A stretch of 64,000 bases of DNA from Solilutibacter silvestris (GTDB lineage: Bacteria > Pseudomonadota > Gammaproteobacteria > Xanthomonadales > Xanthomonadaceae), in the NCBI RefSeq assembly GCF_002895945.1, contig NZ_NPZB01000001.1, forward strand, positions 573,501 to 637,500. Direction: 5' to 3'. The stretch's first letter is position 1, and each line of letters starts with the position of its first letter. Below the pieces are notes generated by a model that was not told the DNA's origin, searched no databases, and saw only the letters and a program-made list of their open reading frames with translations. The translations under genes and the position numbers were made by a program. Shown piece by piece: positions 1-11,372 of this stretch.

Positions 1-780
1 TATCGTGAATTTCTCGCGAAGGCTGATCCAGCTCTGGACATCAAATCGACGGCATGGCTGGCTGATTTCCCTATCAGCAACCGGGAAATTATCCTGCGAG
101 TAGGCAACGACGAGGACGACGAGAACTTTGCGTGGGCGAATGATCGGCTCCTTCAGGAATATGAGAAGGGCACGACTGGTTTGACGCGCGATTTTGTTGG
201 CCCTGCCATCGATACCGGGTTTCGCTTGGGAGCAGCGTCCTCCACTCGACAGCTGATGCTATCGGTTGAACTTGCCCATTTGCTCAGTGGGGAAGAATGC
301 GGCGCAAGCGAAAAGTACTCTGCTGGTCCGTACCAGATGCCATGGAGCAAGTTGAGGTACTCGGGACGTCAGACGCTCAAGGGCGTTATGAATGGCCTTC
401 CCTATCCCCAACTCTGGATCGACGCCAATCCGACCAAGGCGATCAATAAGGCCGAAGACGTGCTCATCGCGCGTCCTGAGCCACGATGCGAGCAGATCCA
501 TGCGTTCACCACTGCATTCATTGAAGAGCATCCGACTAAGTTTTGCACGGGCTTGAGTTTTGCCCACGGCCCCGCTCCGGCCGCGTACATGGAATATTGC
601 AAAGCCATCAACGAGCAGATTCTCGCGGACGAGAAGAATTACCTCGAACATGAGCAAGCTCAGAAAGAGCGGTTGGACGCGGCGGTCATTCCGGAATCGT
701 CTCCAGCCAAAATGATTGAGGATATCGATATCCCTGGGCCTGCCGCGAACACTTCGCCCACATTGCCGGTCGCCGAGTGA
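1..780 (+). CDS. Putative class III nucleotide cyclase-like protein, 5'-truncated by window edge
   Basis: The frame is open from the first base, so the N-terminus lies outside the window; 259 residues are visible. The stretch at about residues 64-96 (FVGPAIDTGFRL, then a SVELAHLL segment) resembles the G-x-x-x-N-x-x-x-R region and following strand of class III adenylate/guanylate cyclases, with Asp in place of the usual Asn and the Arg kept four residues later. Cyclases of this divergent kind occur in Pycsar anti-phage systems, usually with a membrane or TIR effector. The metal-binding half of the domain is not in view, so cyclase identity is inference. The C-terminal about 60 residues are low-complexity and acidic. 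It converges on the two-helix membrane protein gene at 838-1608, with 57 bases between. Confidence 0.55.
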   Translation, partial: YREFLAKADPALDIKSTAWLADFPISNREIILRVGNDEDDENFAWANDRLLQEYEKGTTGLTRDFVGPAIDTGFRLGAASSTRQLMLSVELAHLLSGEECGASEKYSAGPYQMPWSKLRYSGRQTLKGVMNGLPYPQLWIDANPTKAINKAEDVLIARPEPRCEQIHAFTTAFIEEHPTKFCTGLSFAHGPAPAAYMEYCKAINEQILADEKNYLEHEQAQKERLDAAVIPESSPAKMIEDIDIPGPAANTSPTLPVAE

Positions 781-837
781 TAGCTAAACCAATAACGAAT
801 CCCGAGGCAAAAGTCTGAAGTTGGATCGGACTGGGCC

Positions 838-1608
838 TTAGCGAACCGTCGCGTAAACCAGGCCGACAAAGCCGACTGCGACAACGACATGGGCAATGAA
901 GATGGCGCGACGATGCATCTTTTCGCCTTGCTTGATTCGATTCCATTCCGGTTTAATGACCAGATTTCCTAGTAATGTGGCGCGCATGATCTTCTCGTCG
1001 ATCTTCTCGTAAGCACCTTCGGTGCCCATCTTGTCGTAGTCACCGAGCATACCGGTCAGTAGCTGATCGAGTTCGCTCACCAGCTCAATGGCGGCAGGAG
1101 TCGCTTGTTCCAAGCTATCTAGCTTCTGACTCTTTTTCTTTGCTTCCAGCAACAGTCGTTCTGCCAACGTTCTTGGATTGTCGCTCAGGCGCCTCCAGAT
1201 GTCCTCTGGGCTACGACCTCTAGTTTGCGGGGGGTTTGTACGCTCGCAAAACAGCTGGACGCTCGTTTCGGCAAAATTCAAGTGCAATAGTACGTCCCTA
1301 TAGGAACGGCGGTAGTTGTTCCAATGCGCGATGAGCTCGCCCTCGAGCTTCTCACGGTCAAAGGGAGAGAGCTTCACGGAAGCCTCCGGGATGCCCTGTG
1401 CTGCCGCAATATGTTTGATGCGAATTTTGATACGACCGGCAATGACATGGGCCTCCCCCAAACATTCGGCCAGCGCAGCTCTGAAGGTAGTGATCCAGTC
1501 CTTTCTGAAATCGGAAATCTTGCCTTCCTTGTCGGAGACAAGCTTGGAGGTAGCCAATATCGCCGTCACGACGGCAGCCGTGACGGCCAACATATCCTTT
1601 GCTTCCAT
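838..1608 (-). CDS. Hypothetical membrane protein with N- and C-terminal transmembrane helices
   Basis: A 256-residue protein with a hydrophobic helix at about residues 6-21, a long helical charged middle (including a SDFRKDWITTFR segment just after the first helix) and a second hydrophobic helix in the last 22 residues. The ATG at 1608 is chosen because AAGGAG lies four bases upstream; a TTG five codons earlier has no such site. I do not recognise a named family; proteins of this plan recur in phage-defence neighbourhoods, but no function can be read from the sequence. It converges on the cyclase-like gene, so it is not in the same transcript. Confidence 0.65.
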   Translation of the reverse strand: MEAKDMLAVTAAVVTAILATSKLVSDKEGKISDFRKDWITTFRAALAECLGEAHVIAGRIKIRIKHIAAAQGIPEASVKLSPFDREKLEGELIAHWNNYRRSYRDVLLHLNFAETSVQLFCERTNPPQTRGRSPEDIWRRLSDNPRTLAERLLLEAKKKSQKLDSLEQATPAAIELVSELDQLLTGMLGDYDKMGTEGAYEKIDEKIMRATLLGNLVIKPEWNRIKQGEKMHRRAIFIAHVVVAVGFVGLVYATVR

Positions 1609-2017
1609 AATGCTCCTTCCCAAAGTGATCGTTCAAGCGTGGCCGGCCGCGCAAGAAGTGCCCCGACTCTTGATTTTGCTCGCTGCACGACAACCCTTCA
1701 TATTTACCAAACTTTTAACAACTCGTCGACTATGCGTCCGTGCACATCAAGTCTTCAGAATGGGGGGAGGGCCGATCGCGGATATGGTGTGCGCGCCGGG
1801 ATGCCTGGGTCAGTTGACCGAGCTGTGATGATCAAGTTGTCGACGGCACGATCAGGTTGCTTCCGGCCCGAAGCGGACTTCGTCATTAAGAAAAGTCGTA
1901 CGGCTAATTTTTTTAGCGCCTAATCTTTCATGGGCGAGACTGATGTACGACTCATGATGAGGTATAGCATTCGATAGTGCCGGATATAAATAGTTGATTA
2001 GCCAAGGAGCGTACTCA
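1609..2017. other. Intergenic region between divergent cargo genes
   Basis: This stretch separates the leftward membrane-protein gene from the rightward DUF4062 gene and must hold both promoters. Composition falls sharply to AT-rich from about 1880 onward, marking the edge of the DUF4062 block. A short imperfect inverted repeat with a run of seven T (around 1900-1921) could be a weak hairpin. Overlapping open frames on both strands here have no supporting start site or recognisable product. Confidence 0.5.
2004..2009 (+). promoter_or_regulatory. Ribosome binding site deciding a TTG start
   Basis: AAGGAG is followed by eight bases and then TTG at 2018. This fixes the start of the DUF4062 gene at 2018 rather than at the upstream in-frame TTG at 1994, which has no such site. 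Confidence 0.7.
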
Positions 2018-3283
2018 TTGAAAAAACCAACCTTTTTTATTTCTTCAACAATATTTGACTTCAAGGATCTTAGATCGTCGCTCAAGTTCTATCTTGAGCA
2101 GCAAGGATGTAACGTTCTTGCATCAGAATACCCAGATTTTCGAGTGGATCTTGATAAGCATTCATATCAGGCGTGCCTGGATGCCATCCGGCAAGCAGAT
2201 TATTTCGTCTTACTCATTGGGGCAAGAGTTGGAGGGTGGTATGACAAAAAGCAAAGCATTAGCATTACGCAGCAAGAGTATCGCGTTGCATATGAGCTTC
2301 ATAAAGCGGGAAGGCTCAAAATTCTCGCCTTTGCTAGATCGGAAATATGGGAGCTAAAAGAGAGCAGAAGTGAGCTTGTTAAATATCTGGATGGAATCGA
2401 TCTTGCTCCGGAGCAAGTGAAAGCAATCGCTCAACATCCATCGAAAAGATTTGAGAATGCAAATTTTATCATCAACTTCCTTAACGAAGTATCCAGAAAT
2501 ACAGATACAAAGGCTGCTCTCGAAGATAATTCGCTAAAGTTTCCAACGGCGAACTGGTTGTATAGCTTTTCGTCTTTCAAGGATATTGCTGATGCCATCC
2601 AAAGCCAGATTTTTCGTGATACTCCCCTTGAAGAGGCAGCAACAAAGCATCTATTGTCTTTGGAGATCAGGGAGAATCTGAAGGTTCTGCTTTGCAAGAT
2701 GGGTGGCGCAATATACGACCCAGAAATTAGTGTCCAGAATCTCTACAAAGAGCACAATATTTCGAAGGCCTGTCTTAATTTAAGTGCAATAGATGTTAAT
2801 CCAAAGCGATGGAGTCTTCTCGCGACTTTTGGAATTCATCTCCTGGGGAGCGAAGTGAGTGATCGTGTTCTCGATTACTGCCTGAAGTCTTCCTTATTTA
2901 TTGATTTTGATGCCCAAAAAAATAAAGTGGCTAGCACTCGCGTATTCGATGCATTGGCGTCATTGAATCATGAGATTCAAAAGTTTCGCTTGGCGAATGT
3001 TACTAAAACAGTATCGGTAGTGTTCGAATACTCAAAAAAGAATGGTTATTCTGGCAATCTACCAATTCCAATCGAGCCCAAGAAGCTGCTGGCGCTTTTG
3101 CACCTTTATGACAGGTGGGTCAACATAATTAAGCTCAGCGTTGCGTTGCAGATATATCTTGATACCGGTGAGTTTACGGAGCCTGATTTGCGGCCAAAGT
3201 CGCCCATACCTGACATGATTCCTGAGTTAGACCGTGAAGCAATTTCAGATAACGAATTGTCTGCGTATATAGAGAATAGGTAA
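2018..3283 (+). CDS. DUF4062 domain-containing protein
   Basis: A 421-residue protein. With the TTG at 2018 it begins MKKPTFFISSTIFDFKDLR, the canonical opening of the DUF4062 domain (about residues 1-90), followed by the ASEYPDF segment and the LLIGARVGG segment typical of the family. The remaining about 300 residues are not recognised and contain no obvious NTPase motifs or membrane helices. DUF4062 is a Rossmann-like N-terminal module often joined to NTPase or repeat domains and frequently found in accessory and defence loci; its biochemical activity is unsettled. The gene is markedly AT-rich with AT-ending codons, unlike every other gene in the window, so it was probably acquired separately from the rest of the island. 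Confidence 0.75.
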   Translation: MKKPTFFISSTIFDFKDLRSSLKFYLEQQGCNVLASEYPDFRVDLDKHSYQACLDAIRQADYFVLLIGARVGGWYDKKQSISITQQEYRVAYELHKAGRLKILAFARSEIWELKESRSELVKYLDGIDLAPEQVKAIAQHPSKRFENANFIINFLNEVSRNTDTKAALEDNSLKFPTANWLYSFSSFKDIADAIQSQIFRDTPLEEAATKHLLSLEIRENLKVLLCKMGGAIYDPEISVQNLYKEHNISKACLNLSAIDVNPKRWSLLATFGIHLLGSEVSDRVLDYCLKSSLFIDFDAQKNKVASTRVFDALASLNHEIQKFRLANVTKTVSVVFEYSKKNGYSGNLPIPIEPKKLLALLHLYDRWVNIIKLSVALQIYLDTGEFTEPDLRPKSPIPDMIPELDREAISDNELSAYIENR

Positions 3284-3443
3284 TTGTATAACTAGATGCC
3301 TATCGGTGATGGGGGCCTATAATGTCGGCTGCTGGCCGATTCCATTGGAGAACTCGGTTGAAAGCCGACGTCAGACTAATGATTGGGTCAGTTTGTTGAT
3401 CGGCTCGACTTGGTTGCAGTGATCAGCCTCATCGGTGTGAACT

Positions 3444-4196
3444 TCAGTCTTTGAATATCTTGATAATTTCAGACCGCACATATTTGGCATCTTGAATTGC
3501 ATCGAATTTATCTCCGACCTGTACATATTCGAGGCGCGTTGTCACAGTACATTTGGAGCCGTCGTGGTATGTGACGCATTCGAGGTGGGCGCGCCGAGGC
3601 TTATTGTTGATCGTGATGCAATAGACGCCATCGCCATACGAAGAATCAATTTCCCCAAGATGATTTTGGATATAGTGGTGAGAGCAGTTCTTGTCGGTAA
3701 GTCGGTCGAAGTTTGCCAAAACAGCCTCCTTCTTGAACTCGGATGTGTAGCTCACCTCATATAGAAATTGTGGGGTCTCTTTCAAAACACTGATTGGTAG
3801 AAACTCTGGTTCCGGCCAAATATTGACTAGTCCGCCCTTCTTGTAACGCTCGGGCGCTCCGTTTGGGACAAGCGTTAGGGTGCACGTACTTTGATTCCGA
3901 TTTACCGTTTTTCTAAATTCTTGTTTGGTGCCTTTCCCTGTGCTCTCATCGGCGGAGCCATTGAAAGTCCATACGCCAATTAAGTTTGGCCCCTTAAGTT
4001 GAATTTGTCCCGAACGTGTCCCATGGACATTGTCAGCAACCGTGACGAAGCCAAAAGACATGCCGCAGCCAATGTCATCGTTCAGATTCAGGTTATCGCC
4101 TGGCCCTATGAATATGAGTGCTGAACTCTCTATTTGCTGTGCTGATATCCGGCCGGTAAACAGTGCCAAAGACAACAGAATCATGCCCTTCTTCAT
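3444..4196 (-). CDS. Hypothetical secreted protein
   Basis: A 250-residue protein beginning MKKGMILLSLALFTGRISAQQ, a clear signal peptide with likely cleavage after the Ala at about residue 19. The start at 4196 has GGAGGA a few bases upstream, which rules out the ATG six codons earlier. The mature part has several cysteines that could form disulfides, consistent with a periplasmic or exported product. No family is recognised. It converges on the DUF4062 gene and is divergent from the XRE regulator gene, so the 81 bases between it and 4278 should contain two promoters. Confidence 0.6.
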   Translation of the reverse strand: MKKGMILLSLALFTGRISAQQIESSALIFIGPGDNLNLNDDIGCGMSFGFVTVADNVHGTRSGQIQLKGPNLIGVWTFNGSADESTGKGTKQEFRKTVNRNQSTCTLTLVPNGAPERYKKGGLVNIWPEPEFLPISVLKETPQFLYEVSYTSEFKKEAVLANFDRLTDKNCSHHYIQNHLGEIDSSYGDGVYCITINNKPRRAHLECVTYHDGSKCTVTTRLEYVQVGDKFDAIQDAKYVRSEIIKIFKD

Positions 4197-4277
4197 CGCG
4201 CCTCCTCCAAACACGCCTAAAGGTGTCCCACCGAAAAGACTGTAGAGCTTTAGGTGGTAAATTTCTAGGGTGGCACC

Positions 4278-4502
4278 ATGAGTCCGCCGCTCCCAGAACG
4301 TATTGGCTTGGTGATCCGCCGCCGTCGCGAAGCCTTAGGCGTCAGCCAAGAGGCATTTGCGGAACAGGTAGGTATGCATCGCAATTACTACGGCTCAATT
4401 GAGCGGGGACGAAAGACGATGCGTCTGGACACGCTCGAGAAATTGGCTGTAGGCCTAGGCACGGAAGGCTGGCGTCTGCTGAAGGAAGCCGGGCAGCTGT
4501 AG
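4278..4502 (+). CDS. XRE-family helix-turn-helix regulator
   Basis: A 74-residue protein that is essentially one Cro/C1-type helix-turn-helix domain: residues 7-65 fit the pattern, with the recognition segment SQEAFAEQVGMHRNYYGSIERG. Small single-domain regulators like this usually repress their own promoter and neighbouring island genes. AGGGTGG precedes the ATG by a few bases. It sits divergent to the secreted-protein gene, so it could control both. No partner toxin was found next to it. Confidence 0.85.
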   Translation: MSPPLPERIGLVIRRRREALGVSQEAFAEQVGMHRNYYGSIERGRKTMRLDTLEKLAVGLGTEGWRLLKEAGQL

Positions 4503-4907
4503 TCAATTGCTGTTAAAAGTTGGCCTTTGACATCAACGGCCAGGTTTCGGGCAGGCCCTTGGATGCCAACAGACAGCACTTCAGAGCCGGCGACCGATAA
4601 CGGCGTACCGTATGCTGAAATGACGATGGCGTCAGCATATCGACAGGGGTTGCCAATTTTTCAAAGCAACCATTTTAAATCAATAACTTATCGATTGAGT
4701 CGGCAGCTGCTCGGCTAAACCTACGAGCGAAAGATCTCAACACCTATTGACTGTCGATTTTTCCGGGAGGGTGCAATTGGACGTTTTCTAGAGCTAGATG
4801 GAACCGGGTGCTGCACAGCCAGCTCACGTTTATAATAGCAATAGGTAGGGTGGCACGCCAAGACTAAGCGCTCACTGTGCAACTCATGCAAACGCAGACA
4901 GCATGCT
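4503..4907. other. Gene-poor stretch in island, possibly decayed
   Basis: About 400 bases with no convincing gene. A 63-codon frame on the plus strand (4527-4718) and a minus-strand frame from 5041 to 4721 lack credible ribosome binding sites and resemble nothing recognised. The stretch may contain a decayed gene ahead of the small antitoxin-like frame at 4908. Confidence 0.45.
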
Positions 4908-5078
4908 ATGAAACCACGCATCATCAAGAAAAGTTCTATACCCAAACTTGAGGAACTCCTGAAAGGGGTTACTAAGGCGGATTTCAAGAAGTTGCGTTCA
5001 CCTATTGCCGATCGAAAGCCTACGTTGGCGGACTGGGGCATTGAGCTAGGTGGTGGTCATGCGAATCAGAAAAAATAG
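4908..5078 (+). CDS. Small antitoxin-like protein (doubtful)
   Basis: A 56-codon frame encoding a basic peptide with the segment PKLEELLKGVTKADF and a C-terminal TLADWGIELG. The LEELL...DWG arrangement is reminiscent of the C-terminal, toxin-binding tail of MazE-like antitoxins, but the AbrB DNA-binding half is absent and no toxin gene follows. There is no clear ribosome binding site. It may be a remnant of a toxin-antitoxin pair or a small orphan gene; the frame could also be non-coding. Confidence 0.3.
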   Translation: MKPRIIKKSSIPKLEELLKGVTKADFKKLRSPIADRKPTLADWGIELGGGHANQKK

Positions 5079-5179
5079 TTTCCAGTGAAACTGATTAGGG
5101 GCAAGTAGCTCGTAAAGTCGAGTTATTAAACGAAGAGAAATATCAATTGCCCTCTTACAGCGCTACTAACTGACGATAA

Positions 5180-5461
5180 CTAGCCTGTCGGCCAAGCAAG
5201 CCGCGTAGAATGGCTCAAGGGGCCATACCGGCAGTCTTTTGCCCAGAAAGGTACCTCATCGGGGAGCGCTAGCCCAATAGCTGGCCCGGACGAATATCGG
5301 AATAGAGCCAGGGCCGAAACGTCTTCGATAGTTGGAAAATGCCGTGCGATAACTACCGCGTGACGGCGTATGTCGAGAGGCAAGCGGTTGTCTCGAGCAA
5401 GTTCAATCAGAAAGCCGCCGGCCCATAGAAGCGCTCTGGTTCTTTCATCAGGCATGGTCAT
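5180..5461 (-). CDS. BPSL0761 family protein
   Basis: A 93-residue protein starting MTMPDERTRALLWAGGFL, the characteristic N-terminus of the BPSL0761 family, followed by the LPLDIRRHAVVIARHFP segment. Members are small proteins of unknown function common on genomic islands of beta- and gammaproteobacteria. AGAGGA lies upstream of the ATG at 5461, which is preferred to an ATG seven codons earlier and to one two codons later. The 3' end is longer than in typical members and lacks recognisable motifs. Confidence 0.65.
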   Translation of the reverse strand: MTMPDERTRALLWAGGFLIELARDNRLPLDIRRHAVVIARHFPTIEDVSALALFRYSSGPAIGLALPDEVPFWAKDCRYGPLSHSTRLAWPTG

Positions 5462-5594
5462 GGCGAATCCTCTTGGATGCAATTTTTAGTCAATACCCTT
5501 CGAAACGTCGCATGTGCTGGGATCACTGTTACACGTTTACCAACGCATGATTTTTGTCATGACCATGCTTCACGAGGGACTTGGTCACAATCGA

Positions 5595-5912
5595 TCAGGA
5601 TAAGTTGTAGTGGAGATGGGCAACGTATTCGCCTGATGCCGGAGGAATTTGCTGCAAAATTCTCTTGGCGGCGTCCGGGATCCATTCGATCATTTTTGCA
5701 ACCTCCATATCGGCATAGGCATCGATAGGCGCCGTAACGATGTGTGGATGAAAGTATCCTGGGAGTTGATATTTGAGTAATTTCTCAGAGCGTTCGGCGC
5801 TTCCACTTACTGCGATGATAGAAGTGACTCCCTCGCCAGTCGCGCAGTAATTCATATAGCTGATGTACCAACCGGCCCGGATAAAAGTGAGTGCTTCCAA
5901 ATCTTTATTCAT
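5595..5912 (-). CDS. Hypothetical protein
   Basis: A 105-residue soluble protein with no recognised domain. The ATG at 5912 has GGAG about eight bases upstream, supporting that it is translated. It follows the GIY-YIG gene on the same strand with a gap of 42 bases and could be the last member of the recombination operon or an independent cargo gene. No signal peptide or membrane helix is apparent. Confidence 0.5.
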   Translation of the reverse strand: MNKDLEALTFIRAGWYISYMNYCATGEGVTSIIAVSGSAERSEKLLKYQLPGYFHPHIVTAPIDAYADMEVAKMIEWIPDAAKRILQQIPPASGEYVAHLHYNLS

Positions 5913-5954
5913 GGCGTGTCTCCGTTGGTGGTGTATGCCTCGGTTGTATTTAGG

Positions 5955-6491
5955 TCAGGTGATCCTTGCATGTGCATCATGAGTGTGTGAATAAGGTGAA
6001 TTTAGATGAAATGCGGCCTGGATAAGGGCTGTGAATTTCTGACTTCTAACGACAATTTCTTCAAATAGAGTGGGATCAATCTCCAAAACCGCATAAGCGC
6101 TGTCCAATGGCATGTGCGCGAATGCGCTTACGAAGAGCACAAGGTGGCAATCAAGGCGAATCTCACGGAACTTCAAATCCACAATGCTATGGACGCGATC
6201 TATTTCATCATCCCCTTGCTGCGAATTAACCAGGCCAAACTGTTCAAACAGTTGAAGCTTTCGCCGGGGCTTCCAGGCTTTGACCTGTTTTTCGAAGCGT
6301 TGAGCGTACGTGCGTGAGCCGACGGGAATGGCCCCAATCAGTTCGATGGGAGTGAAAAGACGGGTAAATAGTGCGCCGTGACCACTTTTGTGTTGCTTGT
6401 ACCGAGCAACCACATCGCATGAAACGCCGGCGTAGAGGCGATTCGTTTCGCAACGAATCAGATAGGCATACCAAAGATCATTGGTGCCCAT
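5955..6491 (-). CDS. GIY-YIG nuclease domain protein
   Basis: A 178-residue protein. The N-terminal 85 residues fit a GIY-YIG domain: WYAYLIRC supplies the first motif, LYAGVS the second, followed by the Arg in VARYKQHKSGHGALFTR and a distal FEKQVKAW segment with Glu67, in the position of the metal-binding Glu of the family. The C-terminal half is not recognised. Its start overlaps the 3' end of the preceding 607-residue recombinase-like gene by 14 bases, so it is probably translated from the same message. GIY-YIG enzymes cut DNA or resolve branched structures; here a role in processing recombination intermediates or in host competition is inference. Confidence 0.8.
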   Translation of the reverse strand: MGTNDLWYAYLIRCETNRLYAGVSCDVVARYKQHKSGHGALFTRLFTPIELIGAIPVGSRTYAQRFEKQVKAWKPRRKLQLFEQFGLVNSQQGDDEIDRVHSIVDLKFREIRLDCHLVLFVSAFAHMPLDSAYAVLEIDPTLFEEIVVRSQKFTALIQAAFHLNSPYSHTHDAHARIT

Positions 6492-8301
6492 AGCGCCTCA
6501 TGACATGGCCGGCAACACGCTGCTGGGACGCTCCGAGCTGCTCGATGTACATGTGACCGCGGCTTTGGCTGATCCCAAATAGGTCTTGGAGTATGCGCGG
6601 GTTTGCAATCCCTCCCAGAACAAGATTGGCCATGGCCGTCACTCGACCACGCCGAGCGTCATAGCCGTGGAGATTTCGGTAATTTTGAAATGCCGTGGAT
6701 TGAATGTGGGTTCCAGAGCGTGTGCCTGGGAACAAATAGCGGCTGGTGTTCTGTTCGTCGAATGCACCGCGCTCTCGGCGTTGTGTCATCCACCGCTGCA
6801 TCGATGGCACGATGGACTCGTCGAGAGGGATGAACACCTTCGAAAAACGAATTTCATACCCCTCGTCCGCTTCGCGGACATTGGATCTTTCGAGTTGAAC
6901 GAGATCGAAGATGGTCTGCGCATAGATCAAATTGAGCTGGGCAATCAGTGCCCAATGGTTCTTTCGTGGGTCATTCGTAGCCTGGAAGAGGGAAAGAAAG
7001 TGGTTGCGCTCTTCTTCAGAGTAGACAAGATGCGTGGGGATGGGAGGCGCCGGAACCTTGACGCGATGGAGCTTGTGAAACGACAGCTTCCGTTTGTGGT
7101 GATAGCGCAGGAAGGCGCCAGATGCAAATGAATGCAGCTTGTCGGCAAGGGCCATCTCAAACATTTCTTGCGTGATGTCCTGGACGCTTTCAGCGCCGTG
7201 ATTGTTCGCGCAATAGCGAAGAAGTCGGATCGCAGTGCGCACCGCTGATTCGATACTTTTCGCCATGCGTACCAACCGCTGGGTGCGGCGCTGTACATTG
7301 GCTTTCTTCCTCGTCTCCAGCAGGTATCCGATGAAGTCTTGTGTGACAGCCTGAATCCAGGGAACGTCGTCAGTCGACAGCGCTCGGATTCTGCTGATTG
7401 CAAGTTCAAGGCCAAAGTCTGGGTCATCATCCAGCACGACGTAGCCCATGTAGGAGAGAAACGACATCACTCGGCGGTACTTTTTCGAGAACTGATGTCC
7501 GAGCCGTCGAACGATCAAGACGCCTGAGAGCTCCTCCGCAGACGAAAAGACAGATTCGAGATCCTGAAATGCTGCGATATCCCGTTTCAGCGCGTTGCGC
7601 CAAGGTCCACGCAAAGTCTTGATGCGCGCCTCATAGTGATAGGACTCAAAAAGGGCACGAGCCCAGACCGATTGAAGTTGAGGCTTGAGGGTGTGAAGAA
7701 GCCTGAGATGGCTCGCTTCCCACGCGCAATCCTCGCATTGCGTCTTGCTAAAGCCGTATTTCGTTTTTCCGCAGGTGACGCAAACGATGACAGGTGGGTG
7801 CCCAGTCGGCAGGCAGTCTTTGCAATAAGGTTTGCCGTCCCGAAATCCTTCGGCATTTCGCGGACGCCGGCACCCCGCGCAGAGTGGCGTGGTATTCCGG
7901 GTGCTCCGGCATTGTGGACAGGCGGGCTCGGTGAAGCCGAGCTTTAAGTCGCGCCAGACGCGAATGCTGACCTTCTTGCAGTAGTGGCACTCTTTTGGTG
8001 GCGCAAGTTGAACAGCGCATGCGCTACACGCGAGGGTGCCATCAGCGTAAGTGGTCCGCTTGTGCGGCAGGGTTTCTCGGCCGCAGCGCTTGCAGGTCTT
8101 TCCTTCATAGAGGGCAGCATTGATACAGCGGCCGCACAGTTTTGGATTGGCAGTCGGCAAGATTCTCGTCAATCGACCGCACTTTGAGCATGTCAAATGC
8201 TCGGTCTGTTTGTAGTAGCACTTCCGACACAGTTGATATCCCTTGCGGGCACGATAAGCCCCCATTTCCTCGGTGCAGGCTGTACATGGGAAATCAGTCA
8301 T
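6478..8301 (-). CDS. Zinc-ribbon protein with degenerate tyrosine-recombinase C-terminus
   Basis: A 607-residue protein in two parts. The first 192 residues contain twelve CxxC motifs (Cys pairs 6/9, 25/28, 38/41, 56/59, 70/73, 92/95, 105/108, 128/131, 141/144, 160/163, 174/177, 189/192), enough for six zinc ribbons. The C-terminal about 190 residues follow the fold pattern of a tyrosine recombinase: an Arg at 553 in GRVTAMANLVLGG matches the HxxR-box arginine, and Tyr585 sits where the nucleophile belongs. The box I arginine, the His of HxxR and the LGH histidine are missing (AQT, AR and FGIS instead). It may therefore be a DNA-binding accessory of the integrase rather than an active enzyme. 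Overlaps its upstream neighbour by four bases. Confidence 0.75.
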   Translation of the reverse strand: MTDFPCTACTEEMGAYRARKGYQLCRKCYYKQTEHLTCSKCGRLTRILPTANPKLCGRCINAALYEGKTCKRCGRETLPHKRTTYADGTLACSACAVQLAPPKECHYCKKVSIRVWRDLKLGFTEPACPQCRSTRNTTPLCAGCRRPRNAEGFRDGKPYCKDCLPTGHPPVIVCVTCGKTKYGFSKTQCEDCAWEASHLRLLHTLKPQLQSVWARALFESYHYEARIKTLRGPWRNALKRDIAAFQDLESVFSSAEELSGVLIVRRLGHQFSKKYRRVMSFLSYMGYVVLDDDPDFGLELAISRIRALSTDDVPWIQAVTQDFIGYLLETRKKANVQRRTQRLVRMAKSIESAVRTAIRLLRYCANNHGAESVQDITQEMFEMALADKLHSFASGAFLRYHHKRKLSFHKLHRVKVPAPPIPTHLVYSEEERNHFLSLFQATNDPRKNHWALIAQLNLIYAQTIFDLVQLERSNVREADEGYEIRFSKVFIPLDESIVPSMQRWMTQRRERGAFDEQNTSRYLFPGTRSGTHIQSTAFQNYRNLHGYDARRGRVTAMANLVLGGIANPRILQDLFGISQSRGHMYIEQLGASQQRVAGHVMRRYGHQ

Positions 8302-8750
8302 TTCGTCTCTCCCTTGGTGGGGTCTCGACCTGCTTGATGCGGCGCCATGGCGCGCATGGAGGGGCCCACGACCTTTCCCCTCAGATTTGGATCCAGTGGT
8401 GCGATCCCGTCGGGCAAGTCGACAGAGTCTGAAACGCCGCCTGCAACCGCACGCTTGCGCGCCTCGGCAGTGAATGCCGTCATTCCCGGGTTCAGATCGA
8501 CGACGTTATCGGGCGGTGTCCATCCAAAGAGATCGTTTGGCGTGCATTTGAGAATCCTGCACAGCGATCCGATCAACAGGATCGGGACGGTTTCCGGCGA
8601 TTGTCCGAGAAGACGCGTCACCTGCTTGCGGGTTTGCGGATAGTCTCCGTCGAGTTCAATTTGCCTGACCAACTCGGCGATGGTGAACTGCGCGTTCTGC
8701 TCGAGGAGATTACGGAGGGACCATTGAACACTGGCGCGCGCCGGACTCAT
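8298..8750 (-). CDS. XRE-type (HTH_26-like) transcriptional regulator
   Basis: A 150-residue protein. Residues 10-77 form a helix-turn-helix domain of the HTH_26 kind, ending in the typical SLCRILKCTPNDLFGW segment. The C-terminal about 70 residues are Pro/Gly-rich and probably disordered. Start and stop both overlap neighbouring genes by the four bases ATGA, placing it inside the integrase operon. It most likely regulates island excision or the operon promoter, as directionality regulators of other islands do; this is inference from position. Confidence 0.8.
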   Translation of the reverse strand: MSPARASVQWSLRNLLEQNAQFTIAELVRQIELDGDYPQTRKQVTRLLGQSPETVPILLIGSLCRILKCTPNDLFGWTPPDNVVDLNPGMTAFTAEARKRAVAGGVSDSVDLPDGIAPLDPNLRGKVVGPSMRAMAPHQAGRDPTKGETK

Positions 8751-8977
8751 GCGTCGTCCTCCGTTTGCAGACTGCAGCGAATCACCTCGGTAGCGATCTT
8801 TCGCAAGAACTCAACCGGAAGGCGGGTGTAGTGCGCAGTCGTGGATACGAATTCGTATCCCACGGTTTTGGAGGTGATAGGAATCTCGTCAGGCGCGGAT
8901 GTCCGCTGCAGTGTGTGTGTCGAAAGCGGGGCCTTGGCAATTCCGCGATGACGGCGAGTGACGTGTGCCCGAGTCAT
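8747..8977 (-). CDS. Mini-protein paralogous to the integrase catalytic tail
   Basis: A 76-residue protein whose last 42 residues align without gaps to the last 42 of the adjacent integrase: TSKTVGY...STTAHYTRL...FLRKIATEVIR against TSKSMGH...STTARYTHL...FLRNVAVNVIR. The nucleophile-position Tyr is kept, the LGH-box His is replaced by Tyr, and nothing upstream of that box is present. The first about 35 residues are basic and unrelated. Four-base overlaps on both sides and the maintained frame argue that it is a translated gene and not debris from a duplication, but a decaying partial duplicate remains possible. Confidence 0.65.
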   Translation of the reverse strand: MTRAHVTRRHRGIAKAPLSTHTLQRTSAPDEIPITSKTVGYEFVSTTAHYTRLPVEFLRKIATEVIRCSLQTEDDA

Positions 8978-10185
8978 GTCTCGTCCTCCCTGTACAAGTC
9001 GCGGCGAATCACATTGACAGCGACATTCCGTAAGAATTTGTCCGAGAGGTGGGTGTAGCGTGCGGTGGTAGATCCATGCACGTGGCCCATGCTCTTGGAG
9101 GTGAATTGCATGGGGACATCGGCTTCGCTCTGATGGGACGCGAACATGTGCCGCAGTCCATGTGTCGAGAAGAGTTTTTCATCGAGACCACACGTACGGA
9201 TCAGGAACTTGTAGCGGCCCCAAATCGATGCGCGGCAGAGACGCTTGCCAACCTCGGACAACCACATGGCGGATTCGTGGCCAGGCAAGACCGCGAATTT
9301 CGGCCGGATCTCCTCCAGATACCAATCCAGGATCGACGGGATTGCTGGGGTGATTGGTGGTGCCATCCGGAATTTGGGGCCACTGCCCCGGCTCCCTTTG
9401 CCGTATACGCCAGCAAATCCATAGCGACCGAGTTCAGGGAGATCAGGGTTCTTCCTGAAGCTCGTCATATCGAGCTTGTGTCCCTCGCTCAATCGCAGGC
9501 CATAGGCGTAGTACGTACAGAACATGGCTTTGTCACGCTGCAAGGTCTTGAGGAGCCGTTTCCGCTCGCCACCTGCGATTTCGATGAGGATGTCGATCAT
9601 CCGGAAGAAGGCGTCCAGTTCTTGCGCATCCATGTGGTAACGCTCGGTCACCTCGCCGTCGTCCGTGACATGGACAATGCGGTTTTCGACGGTCACGACC
9701 TGTTCGATGCGTTCCCCGCAGAGGGCATGCACCTGGTTTTGCCAGTTCCGGTTGGTGACCAGGTAGTCGTAGAGCGTCGAGACGGCCGTTTGCATGCCAC
9801 GCTGGGTCTTCGACTTCAACTTGCGTTCGGCGCTCAGATGGGAGCACCACGATTCGAAGTCGTCTGACGTACAGGCCCAGATCGGCTGGCCGGCATAGGC
9901 CAGGAATTCTTCCGCATGCCGACGGTCGCGTTGGACCGTTTTGGCCGTGTGCCGCCGGGCCCCGCGATGGCCGACGAAATACCCATCCAGCATCTGGGTT
10001 TGGAGCTTCATCTCTGCCTCGGTGAGATCCCGGGGTGGACGTTGGAGAGGTAGGACCGTCGGTTGCTTGGCCTTTCGGGCACGCCGACGGCGCTCTTCCC
10101 GCGCCTCTTCCGGGGTCGGGACCGGGACTTCGTTGGCAGCTTGGGCCAGCGGAGCTTGTCCAAAAGGGAGAATGGTGGCGGTCAT
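8974..10185 (-). CDS. Tyrosine-type site-specific integrase
   Basis: A 403-residue integrase with a complete catalytic set: Arg231 in AYGLRLSEG, Lys263 in GKGSRG, His342 and Arg345 in HGLRH, His368 in MGH, and the nucleophile Tyr377 in TTARYTHLS. An N-terminal SAM-like core-binding domain occupies about residues 70-155, preceded by a basic low-complexity arm. The ATG at 10185 has GGAGG eight bases upstream and is preferred to the TTG at 10200. It is the first gene of the operon reading away from comM and is the likely enzyme for integration and excision of the island. No inactivating change was found. Confidence 0.92.
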   Translation of the reverse strand: MTATILPFGQAPLAQAANEVPVPTPEEAREERRRRARKAKQPTVLPLQRPPRDLTEAEMKLQTQMLDGYFVGHRGARRHTAKTVQRDRRHAEEFLAYAGQPIWACTSDDFESWCSHLSAERKLKSKTQRGMQTAVSTLYDYLVTNRNWQNQVHALCGERIEQVVTVENRIVHVTDDGEVTERYHMDAQELDAFFRMIDILIEIAGGERKRLLKTLQRDKAMFCTYYAYGLRLSEGHKLDMTSFRKNPDLPELGRYGFAGVYGKGSRGSGPKFRMAPPITPAIPSILDWYLEEIRPKFAVLPGHESAMWLSEVGKRLCRASIWGRYKFLIRTCGLDEKLFSTHGLRHMFASHQSEADVPMQFTSKSMGHVHGSTTARYTHLSDKFLRNVAVNVIRRDLYREDET

Positions 10186-10466
10186 GGCGAGCGCCTCCAA
10201 CGGAGTCGGGTGGGCCTAGACGCAGCCCCGGGGTGGTGGTGGTGTGTGTGCATGACAAAGGCGATAGCACACAGTCGCGATATCCAAAATTGGCGATTCA
10301 AACCGCACTGACTACCTCAGGCGGATGAATGTCAATCATGTGCCCTCAAGGCGTATTTCCCACCCTGGAACCAACCTCTAAAACGACGCTAAACTTCTTT
10401 CAGAACAAAGAGTTAGAGTTGGATTTCGAGGCTGAATGGCCGGGGACGGGATCCTTCGAATCTTCT
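10186..10466. other. Island/comM junction and integrase promoter region
   Basis: The stretch between the integrase start and the last base of comM homology (10467). It must contain the integrase promoter (minus strand) and the attachment site. The comM-derived side begins with the Walker B coding sequence at 10467-10490. The other copy of the core repeat lies outside the window, so the exact crossover cannot be fixed. No terminator or gene was recognised. Confidence 0.6.
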
Positions 10467-11372
10467 GAGTTCGTCGAGGAAGAGCACGCCATTGTGGGCC
10501 AGCGAAATCTCGCCGGGACGCGGATCGCTGCCGCCGCCGACCAATGCGACAGCGCTCGAGGAATGGTGGGGTGAGCGGAACGGACGCTGGCGCCAGCGTG
10601 CTGCATCGAAACCGCGTCCGCTGATCGACGCCAGCGTCGCCGACTCCAACGCTTCCTGTTCGCTCGCTTCCGGCAGGATGCCAGGCAGGCGCGCCGCCAG
10701 CAGGCTCTTGCCGCAGCCGGGCGAACCGGTGAACAGCAGATGGTGACCACCGGCCGCGGCGATCTCCAGGGCACGGCGCGCGTGTTGCTGGCCGCGCACG
10801 TCGGCAAGATCGGGATAGGTTCCGGCGATATCGGCATCGGCGCAGGCGCGCGGCAGCGCGGTGTGTCCCTGCAGCATCGCGCAAACTTCCGACAGCGTGC
10901 GCGCGACGTGGACTTGGGCATTGCGCGCGAGCGCGGCTTCGGCGGCGTTGCCGGGCGCGACGATCAGCCGGCGTCCCTGCGCCTGCGCGGCCAACGCCGC
11001 CGGCAGCACGCCATCGACCGGACGCAGTTCGCCGGTGAGTCCGAGTTCGGCGATGCATTCGACTTCGTTCAATGCGTCCTGCGGGATCTCTCCGGCGGCA
11101 GCGAGGATGCCGAGCGCGATCGGCAGGTCGAAGCGACCACCGTGCTTGGGCAGATCGGCAGGCGCGAGATTGACGGTGATATTGCGACTGGGAAATTCCA
11201 TCTGCGCGCAGGAAATCGCCGCACGGACGCGGTCCTTGGCTTCGCGGACGGCGGCTTCCGGCAATCCGACCACCGACATCCGCGGCAAGCCACCGGCCAG
11301 ATGCACTTCCACGGTGACAGCGGGCGCGGACACACCGACCCGCGCACGGCTGTGCGCAAGCGCGAGTTGCAT
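10413..11372 (-). pseudogene. comM: comM (YifB-type Mg-chelatase-like ATPase), truncated by island insertion
   Basis: The first 302 codons are a normal ComM: an N-terminal ChlI-type domain, then the AAA+ core with Walker A GSPGCGKS (216-223) and Walker B LFLDE (297-301). Right after LFLDEL the reading frame leaves the family and continues for 17 unrelated residues to a stop at 10413, so about 180-200 residues of the ATPase and C-terminal domain are lost. Intact ComM is a hexameric helicase that promotes branch migration during natural transformation. The fragment keeps nucleotide-binding residues but lacks sensor and arginine-finger regions and should be inactive. It lies 17 bases after ubiK. 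Confidence 0.9.

Follow-up and report, generated by a model that had tools for sequence, protein, structure and literature searches.

The recombination operon described here lies in a stretch of 64,000 nucleotides of the Solilutibacter silvestris genome (assembly GCF_002895945.1, contig NZ_NPZB01000001.1, positions 573,501 to 637,500 of the forward strand), which we call the window. Judged by gene content and order, by the element ends and by the insertion point, this operon almost certainly belongs, as the recombination module, to a Tsy transposon that measures about 31,040 bp and has inserted in comM. The element extends from about C1:552925 to 583964 of the host genome (G000), and window positions 1-10464 are the portion in view. 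It is an additional Tsy, a kind of element already known, with a 76-residue scrap of its tyrosine recombinase (YRec) and with unusually legible ends. The operon is read on the minus strand in the order YRec, 76-residue open reading frame (ORF), helix-turn-helix (HTH) protein, TnsF-like protein and GIY-YIG protein. The features of element and target in the window are:

10465..11372, minus strand: 5' portion of comM/yifB, about 302 codons long and interrupted within the Walker B region (TIGR00368, 3.9e-115, for the ORF at 10413-11372)
10445..10464, no strand assigned: end1 terminus, a 20-nt arm that matches, at 18/20 and in inverted orientation, a stretch lying six bases inside the other end; 0 of 200,000 random stretches of locus L006 reached 18/20
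10186..10464, minus strand: end1 leader between comM and YRec, 279 bp
8974..10185, minus strand: YRec, tyrosine recombinase (PF00589 Phage_integrase, 1.3e-15), 403 aa from ATG or 408 aa from an upstream TTG
8747..8977, minus strand: 76-aa ORF, an incomplete and degenerate copy of the C-terminal part of YRec (34% over 87 aa; 68.7% DNA identity over 131 bp)
8298..8750, minus strand: HTH protein of the Cro/C1 type, 150 aa (HTH_26, 9e-8)
6478..8301, minus strand: TnsF-like putative target selector, 607 aa, with N-terminal zinc ribbons and a degenerate recombinase-like C-terminus carrying Y585
5955..6491, minus strand: GIY-YIG nuclease, 178 aa (PF01541, 1.9e-9)
1..5954, no strand assigned: the part of the Tsy cargo within the window; the element extends leftward to about G000:C1:552925

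Gene content and the comM target

Tsy was described in 2023 by Faure et al. (PMC10293859) as a non-Tn7 transposon with genes for YRec, an HTH protein, a TnsF-like protein and a GIY-YIG protein, in which the 5' part of comM lies upstream of the operon and the 3' part downstream. The GIY-YIG gene, reported missing from some Tsy relatives, is part of the operon in the branch near Tn7, and TnsF is the comM selector of Tn6022. One element, ZooTsy of Zoogloea sp. LCSB751, was reconstituted in E. coli. The window element has the same structure: a YRec-HTH-TnsF-like operon with GIY-YIG, preceded by the 5' part of comM and, beyond the cargo, followed by the 3' part. As far as the available text of that paper describes ZooTsy, the two elements have in common the gene order, the operon on the 5' side of comM, insertion in the Walker B region, CCAGTC at end2, cargo ahead of the 3' comM part and a tyrosine at the TnsF C-terminus; they differ in the extra YRec relict of the window element and in the length of the end1 leader (279 bp versus 135 bp in ZooTsy). 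Among the papers covered by our search on TnsF and Tsy there was no second experimental Tsy paper, and looking for Xanthomonadaceae islands in comM that carry GIY-YIG gave no paper either.

The target is an interrupted gene. Unbroken comM is present in related genomes, and in tblastn the 5' part aligns with an intact relative at 91% identity from residue 1 to residue 307, where the final residues are already element sequence. The break lies at about window position 10465, and comM restarts at about G000:C1:552924, which places the second border outside the window; the 3' portion (L007:19426-18830 by tblastn) is found on the same contig at a distance of 31 kb. The multi-gene integration module that the first-pass annotation had placed at an island end thus sits at a real border. 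Of 11 genomes of the genus, 8 have a comM frame that stays open for 509 residues or more, and in G000, G010 and G005 the gene is broken, the occupants being Tsy in two and a Tn7-like element in one. No tRNA gene was found in the window, which ruled out a tRNA gene as the insertion site.

The left parts of comM end in GACGAACTCAG (window), GACGAGCTCCC (G010), GATGAATTGCC (G858) and GATGAGTTACC (G836). In all four elements the break falls about 11 nt past the start of the Walker B Asp codon, within 1-2 bases; the exact junction base is uncertain by one or two. The window break would shift one base earlier if the host had the Thr codon of G002 and G007, and at the G010 junction two C's are common to both sides. 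For G000, G010 and G858, the three elements in which this was readable, the two comM parts share a contig, and left and right parts continue in frame in 3/3 elements with both ends read.

The zinc-ribbon part of the 607-residue protein resembles proteins of Tn6022-like Tn7 elements, at 26-29% over residues 2-349 (L010, L011) and 22% over residues 23-292 (L012), and these elements also have comM as target. In G005, G130 and G038 the gene matching its N-terminal part (29, 26 and 22%, respectively) is the last of an operon encoding Mu-transposase, TniB and TniQ family proteins next to the 3' part of comM. We read the 607-residue protein as TnsF because pairing of a zinc-ribbon gene with a Tn7-like operon beside comM is the hallmark of TnsF. 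The Tn6022-like elements differ from the window element in encoding these Mu-transposase, TniB and TniQ family proteins, with TnsA in L011 (the only locus scanned for it); their TnsF, with 491-522 aa, is the shorter protein and has no C-terminal Tyr, and comM is cut about 20 codons upstream. In the window the neighbours of the TnsF gene are HTH and GIY-YIG, without adjoining TnsA, TnsB, TnsC or TniQ; Tn7 proteins occur in L010, L011 and L012. No Tn7 component was detected among 10 proteins of the part of the island outside the window and the scanned window proteins, a subset of the cargo ORFs.

Element ends and a putative route of movement

The terminal inverted repeat (18/20) sets the window element apart from the loci of Faure et al., in which, by the authors' account, inverted repeats were undetectable (PMC10293859). 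In G010 the arms match at 13/20 positions in the same register, the first bases at 12/13 by eye, and in G858 they reach at best 11/20, in other registers; the comparison with random stretches covers the window element. The repeat thus appears clear in the window element, partial in G010 and doubtful in G858.

Between arm and target lie a few bases that seem to belong to the element. The six bases preceding the right comM part are CCAGTC in the window element and CCAACC and CCAGTA in two further elements. The circle joint of ZooTsy is printed as ...AATCCCAGTC / AAGTTCTGAT..., where end2 finishes in CCAGTC, and in the 30-base end2 string CCAGTC follows one G (PMC10293859, as far as available). 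End1 of G010 begins AAGTTTCTAG, and the bases ahead of end1 are comM sequence. Because the right-hand bases are CCAGTC, CCAACC or CCAGTA, with CCAGTC also in ZooTsy, yet those before end1 are comM, we tentatively propose that Tsy elements retain their own spacer of about six bases in each cycle through biased strand exchange, with YRec on the inverted arms of the circle and TnsF on the side of comM. We regard this as possible but somewhat doubtful, since the last 1-2 bases of each spacer are indistinguishable from comM.

Extrapolating from the reconstituted relative ZooTsy (PMC10293859), the window element would move via a circle that joins end2 to end1. TnsF would bind the comM codons for Walker B and bring the element there, and both YRec and TnsF would contribute catalytic tyrosines. 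The HTH protein would be needed, and the GIY-YIG protein would be helpful yet dispensable. Our own addition is that YRec may bind in the circle to the 20-nt inverted arms on either side of the six-base spacer.

Recombinase-like genes together with a small protein at one island end could also point to an island with several recombinases of the GInt, RIT or SE type. In the accessible parts of the respective papers, GInts have a four-gene operon at the island end, GinC as a recombinase-like protein without the first Arg and excision compatible with six-base staggered cuts (PMC5385486), and SEs have 13-19 bp inverted repeats with a six-base spacer and a suggested translational coupling in the operon (PMC10214605). 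The gene sets differ: ginABCD comprises three integrases and a small protein and uses other targets, and SEs have the order intA-tfp-intB-srap with two RHRY recombinases, whereas the window operon encodes one protein with a full set. By Pfam there is one integrase in the operon and no third, so the GInt layout is not present, and the target is comM; zinc-ribbon TnsF and GIY-YIG are not named among the GInt and SE core genes in the accessible text (PMC5385486, PMC10214605). In the SE circle the spacer is taken from the sequence flanking the donor site on the left (PMC10214605, in the same parts), whereas the Tsy spacer looks element-borne. We therefore give an island of the GInt, RIT or SE kind next to no credence. 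The distinction from RIT elements drawn in the first-pass annotation stands, since the five genes include one Pfam integrase and no three tandem tyrosine recombinases.

Operon proteins and gene overlaps

When YRec is aligned with five others of its kind and the alignment read by eye, it shows the R, K, H, R, H and Y positions, which agrees with the earlier statement that a single protein of the operon carries the full catalytic set. The integrase is the only operon protein with a PHROGs match. A GMT system was dropped as a candidate, the match of YRec to GmtY being weak (E 0.041). The Pfam family HTH_26 is also found in the HTH proteins of L058 and L031, and GIY-YIG homologs occur in L009 and L058.

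For Tsy, Faure et al. describe a TnsF with several zinc fingers at the N-terminus and, at the C-terminus, a recombinase domain that carries a catalytic Tyr (PMC10293859). In the TnsF-like protein, Pfam zinc-ribbon matches stay below the cut-off and Cys pairs are present. The C-terminal Tyr is kept in 5/5 aligned proteobacterial TnsF-like proteins (Y585 here) and absent from five actinobacterial ones; judged by eye, eight aligned TnsF-like proteins lack the first Arg of the recombinase set. For ZooTnsF a Y584F mutant was made, and the recombinase activities of both YRec and TnsF were found to be essential (PMC10293859). The kept Tyr fits the reported need of ZooTnsF for recombinase activity (Y584).

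Several points weigh against the assignment to Tsy. The likeness to ZooTsy is a likeness to what the text of the paper describes. The catalytic residues of TnsF other than the Tyr are unconserved, and its AlphaFold model is poor (pLDDT 48), leaving a recombinase fold of the C-terminus unsupported; eight TnsF-like proteins compared with six YRecs in hhalign gave a weak probability of 1.4% and an E of 0.037. Furthermore, the 5' comM part of G858 was found only for residues 177-306, so that this copy, with its flanking comM, is partly decayed or diverged.

The ORF coordinates give overlaps of exactly 4, 4, 4 and 14 bases along the operon, as had been noted for the five head-to-tail genes. The first-pass annotation took the coupling as a sign of fixed stoichiometry in an integration complex and the module as its best candidate for an undescribed system; in this reading all five proteins, the 76-residue one included, would assemble in a fixed complex. 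The five consecutive overlapping genes, with the 76-residue frame open and coupled on both sides, speak for such a module. On the other hand, Tsy, whose operon in comM was published in 2023 (PMC10293859), has the same target and four of these five genes, which contradicts the claim of novelty, and the 76-residue gene is missing in 7/7 other YRec-HTH operons (L009, L058, L059, L031, L032 and two in L035), where YRec and HTH adjoin without room for it. In these seven, YRec and HTH overlap by 32 (8 with a later start), 4, 4, 17, 8 and 4 bases or, between the 17 and the 8, are separated by a gap of 10; HTH and TnsF show, in the same sequence of operons, an overlap of 4, gaps of 6 and 6, an overlap of 4, a gap of 6, an overlap of 8 and a gap of 61, and L034 and L036 add overlaps of 4. 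Starts were taken as annotated or as those of the longest ORF, and the comparison covers eight operons for YRec-HTH and ten for HTH-TnsF. Close packing is general, and the exact chain of four-base overlaps is variable. Since overlap lengths vary between operons, the fixed stoichiometry deduced from the coupling is unsupported, and we consider an undescribed module very improbable.

By the first-pass annotation's own criterion, the idea of a module would fail if the integrase acted alone in homologous islands and the other genes varied. Here the outcome is mixed: YRec is accompanied by HTH and TnsF, GIY-YIG is reported missing from some Tsy relatives, and the 76-residue gene is absent in the seven other operons.

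The 76-residue ORF, in which Pfam recognized no family, aligns with the C-terminal third of YRec. By eye it has internal deletions and changes of catalytic R to Q and H to Y, and the Tyr is kept. Within a Tsy operon this ORF could still be a working regulator, for instance a C-terminal piece of YRec that joins the tetramer and damps or biases it. The frame, which is open and coupled to each neighbour by four bases, the retained Tyr and C-terminal helix region, and the distribution of differences from YRec over codon positions (13, 10 and 18, i.e. 18 of 41 at third positions) are in line with this; the third-position excess is insignificant (p = 0.10), however, two catalytic positions are changed, internal deletions are present and the gene occurs in one element only. 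We therefore regard a regulatory function as unlikely. Most likely, and on the simplest reading, the ORF is a relict of a tandem YRec duplication without a working role.

Relatives, cargo and implications

Full-length Tsy-type TnsF genes are rare in the sampled genomes. Among 199 genomes, the host included, there was one further Tsy, that of G010; no full-length Tsy-type TnsF beyond the window was found in 397 genomes of the order and 369 of the class, and 398 genomes of the phylum contained two, in G858 and G836. These samples overlap, and the first look of the search may miss distant copies. The scan of genome contigs gave only the G010 contig, from a metagenome-assembled genome of the Lysobacteraceae. 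G010 and G858 have the same order next to a broken comM, with matches for YRec, HTH, TnsF and GIY-YIG of 54, 39, 44 and 44% (the last over 95 aa) in G010 and of 37, 31, 22 and 38% in G858. The search for the five-gene order elsewhere thus recovered four of the genes beside broken comM in both genomes, but not the 76-residue gene. In G836 the order comM-YRec-HTH-TnsF runs to the contig end.

Other candidates were rejected as Tsy: G1103, G835, G1171, G923, G1169, G1092 and G366 matched with the C-terminal part only, G1055 and G999 ended with the contig, G1038, G112 and G355 were Tn7-like by their ORF lists and G318 had a TniQ-zinc-ribbon fusion by eye.

Plasmid records with a TnsF match numbered 61, six of them covering at least 80% of the query. 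Four of the five plasmid loci examined (L031, L032, L034, L035 and L036) have YRec beside HTH and a TnsF-like gene, and the fifth has a YRec fragment only, near an IS110 copy; none of the five stretches gave a match to comM. L035, from an Arthrobacter plasmid, carries two adjacent, divergent YRec-HTH-TnsF-like trios (L035:10-2933 and 3411-6338), both without the C-terminal Tyr. Viral contigs scanned for TnsF-like proteins gave 65 and 39 pattern matches and no relative, and among phage records two short Acinetobacter-labelled ones matched the N-terminal part of TnsF.

The cargo includes a RamC/LanC-type lanthipeptide synthetase (888 aa) with an ABC transporter (L006:9339-13650, minus strand), near which a MacB-like exporter, a sigma-54 response regulator and a histidine kinase are encoded (L006:1824-7023). 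Further cargo genes encode nucleoside deoxyribosyltransferase/PfkB, QueC-like and nitroreductase-like proteins and an Ogg-type glycosylase (L006:14841-18128), where PADLOC, run on three of these four proteins, reported QueC only. An M78 peptidase (L006:19087-19638; PADLOC capP, 4e-25) is followed by a 380-aa protein without a Pfam match whose start looks nucleotide-cyclase-like by eye (L067:638-1780, reaching into window 1-780). A DUF4062 protein (Pfam 7.8e-17) is encoded at window 1994-3283 on the plus strand.

Among the Tn7-like loci, L043:4770-6794 (plus strand) holds a 674-aa ORF with a TniQ-like start, by eye, and a TnsF-like zinc-ribbon end, in a Tn7-like element beside comM (3' part at L043:482-1147). 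It is a TniQ-TnsF fusion like the single case in the available text of Faure et al. (PMC10293859). DUF5131 genes (Pfam E < 1e-106) lie near Tn7-like and TnsF-like genes at L010:5359-6108, L043:13191-13928 and L061:1711-2499, the one in L010 adjoining a gene with a GMT-like winged HTH domain.

What had been suspected to be an unknown system is a transposon of a kind described recently, and an easily readable one whose two ends are located within 1-2 bases; comM is a shared target of Tsy and Tn7-like elements within one genus. The inverted arms and the short spacer offer a concrete model for the binding sites of the two recombinases, a matter left unsettled in the available text of Faure et al. 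(PMC10293859). If the spacer proposal is true, labour would be divided between two recombinases, and strand exchange would be biased towards the element's own spacer, unlike in SEs, where the donor flank is copied, and in GInts, where both outcomes are shown.

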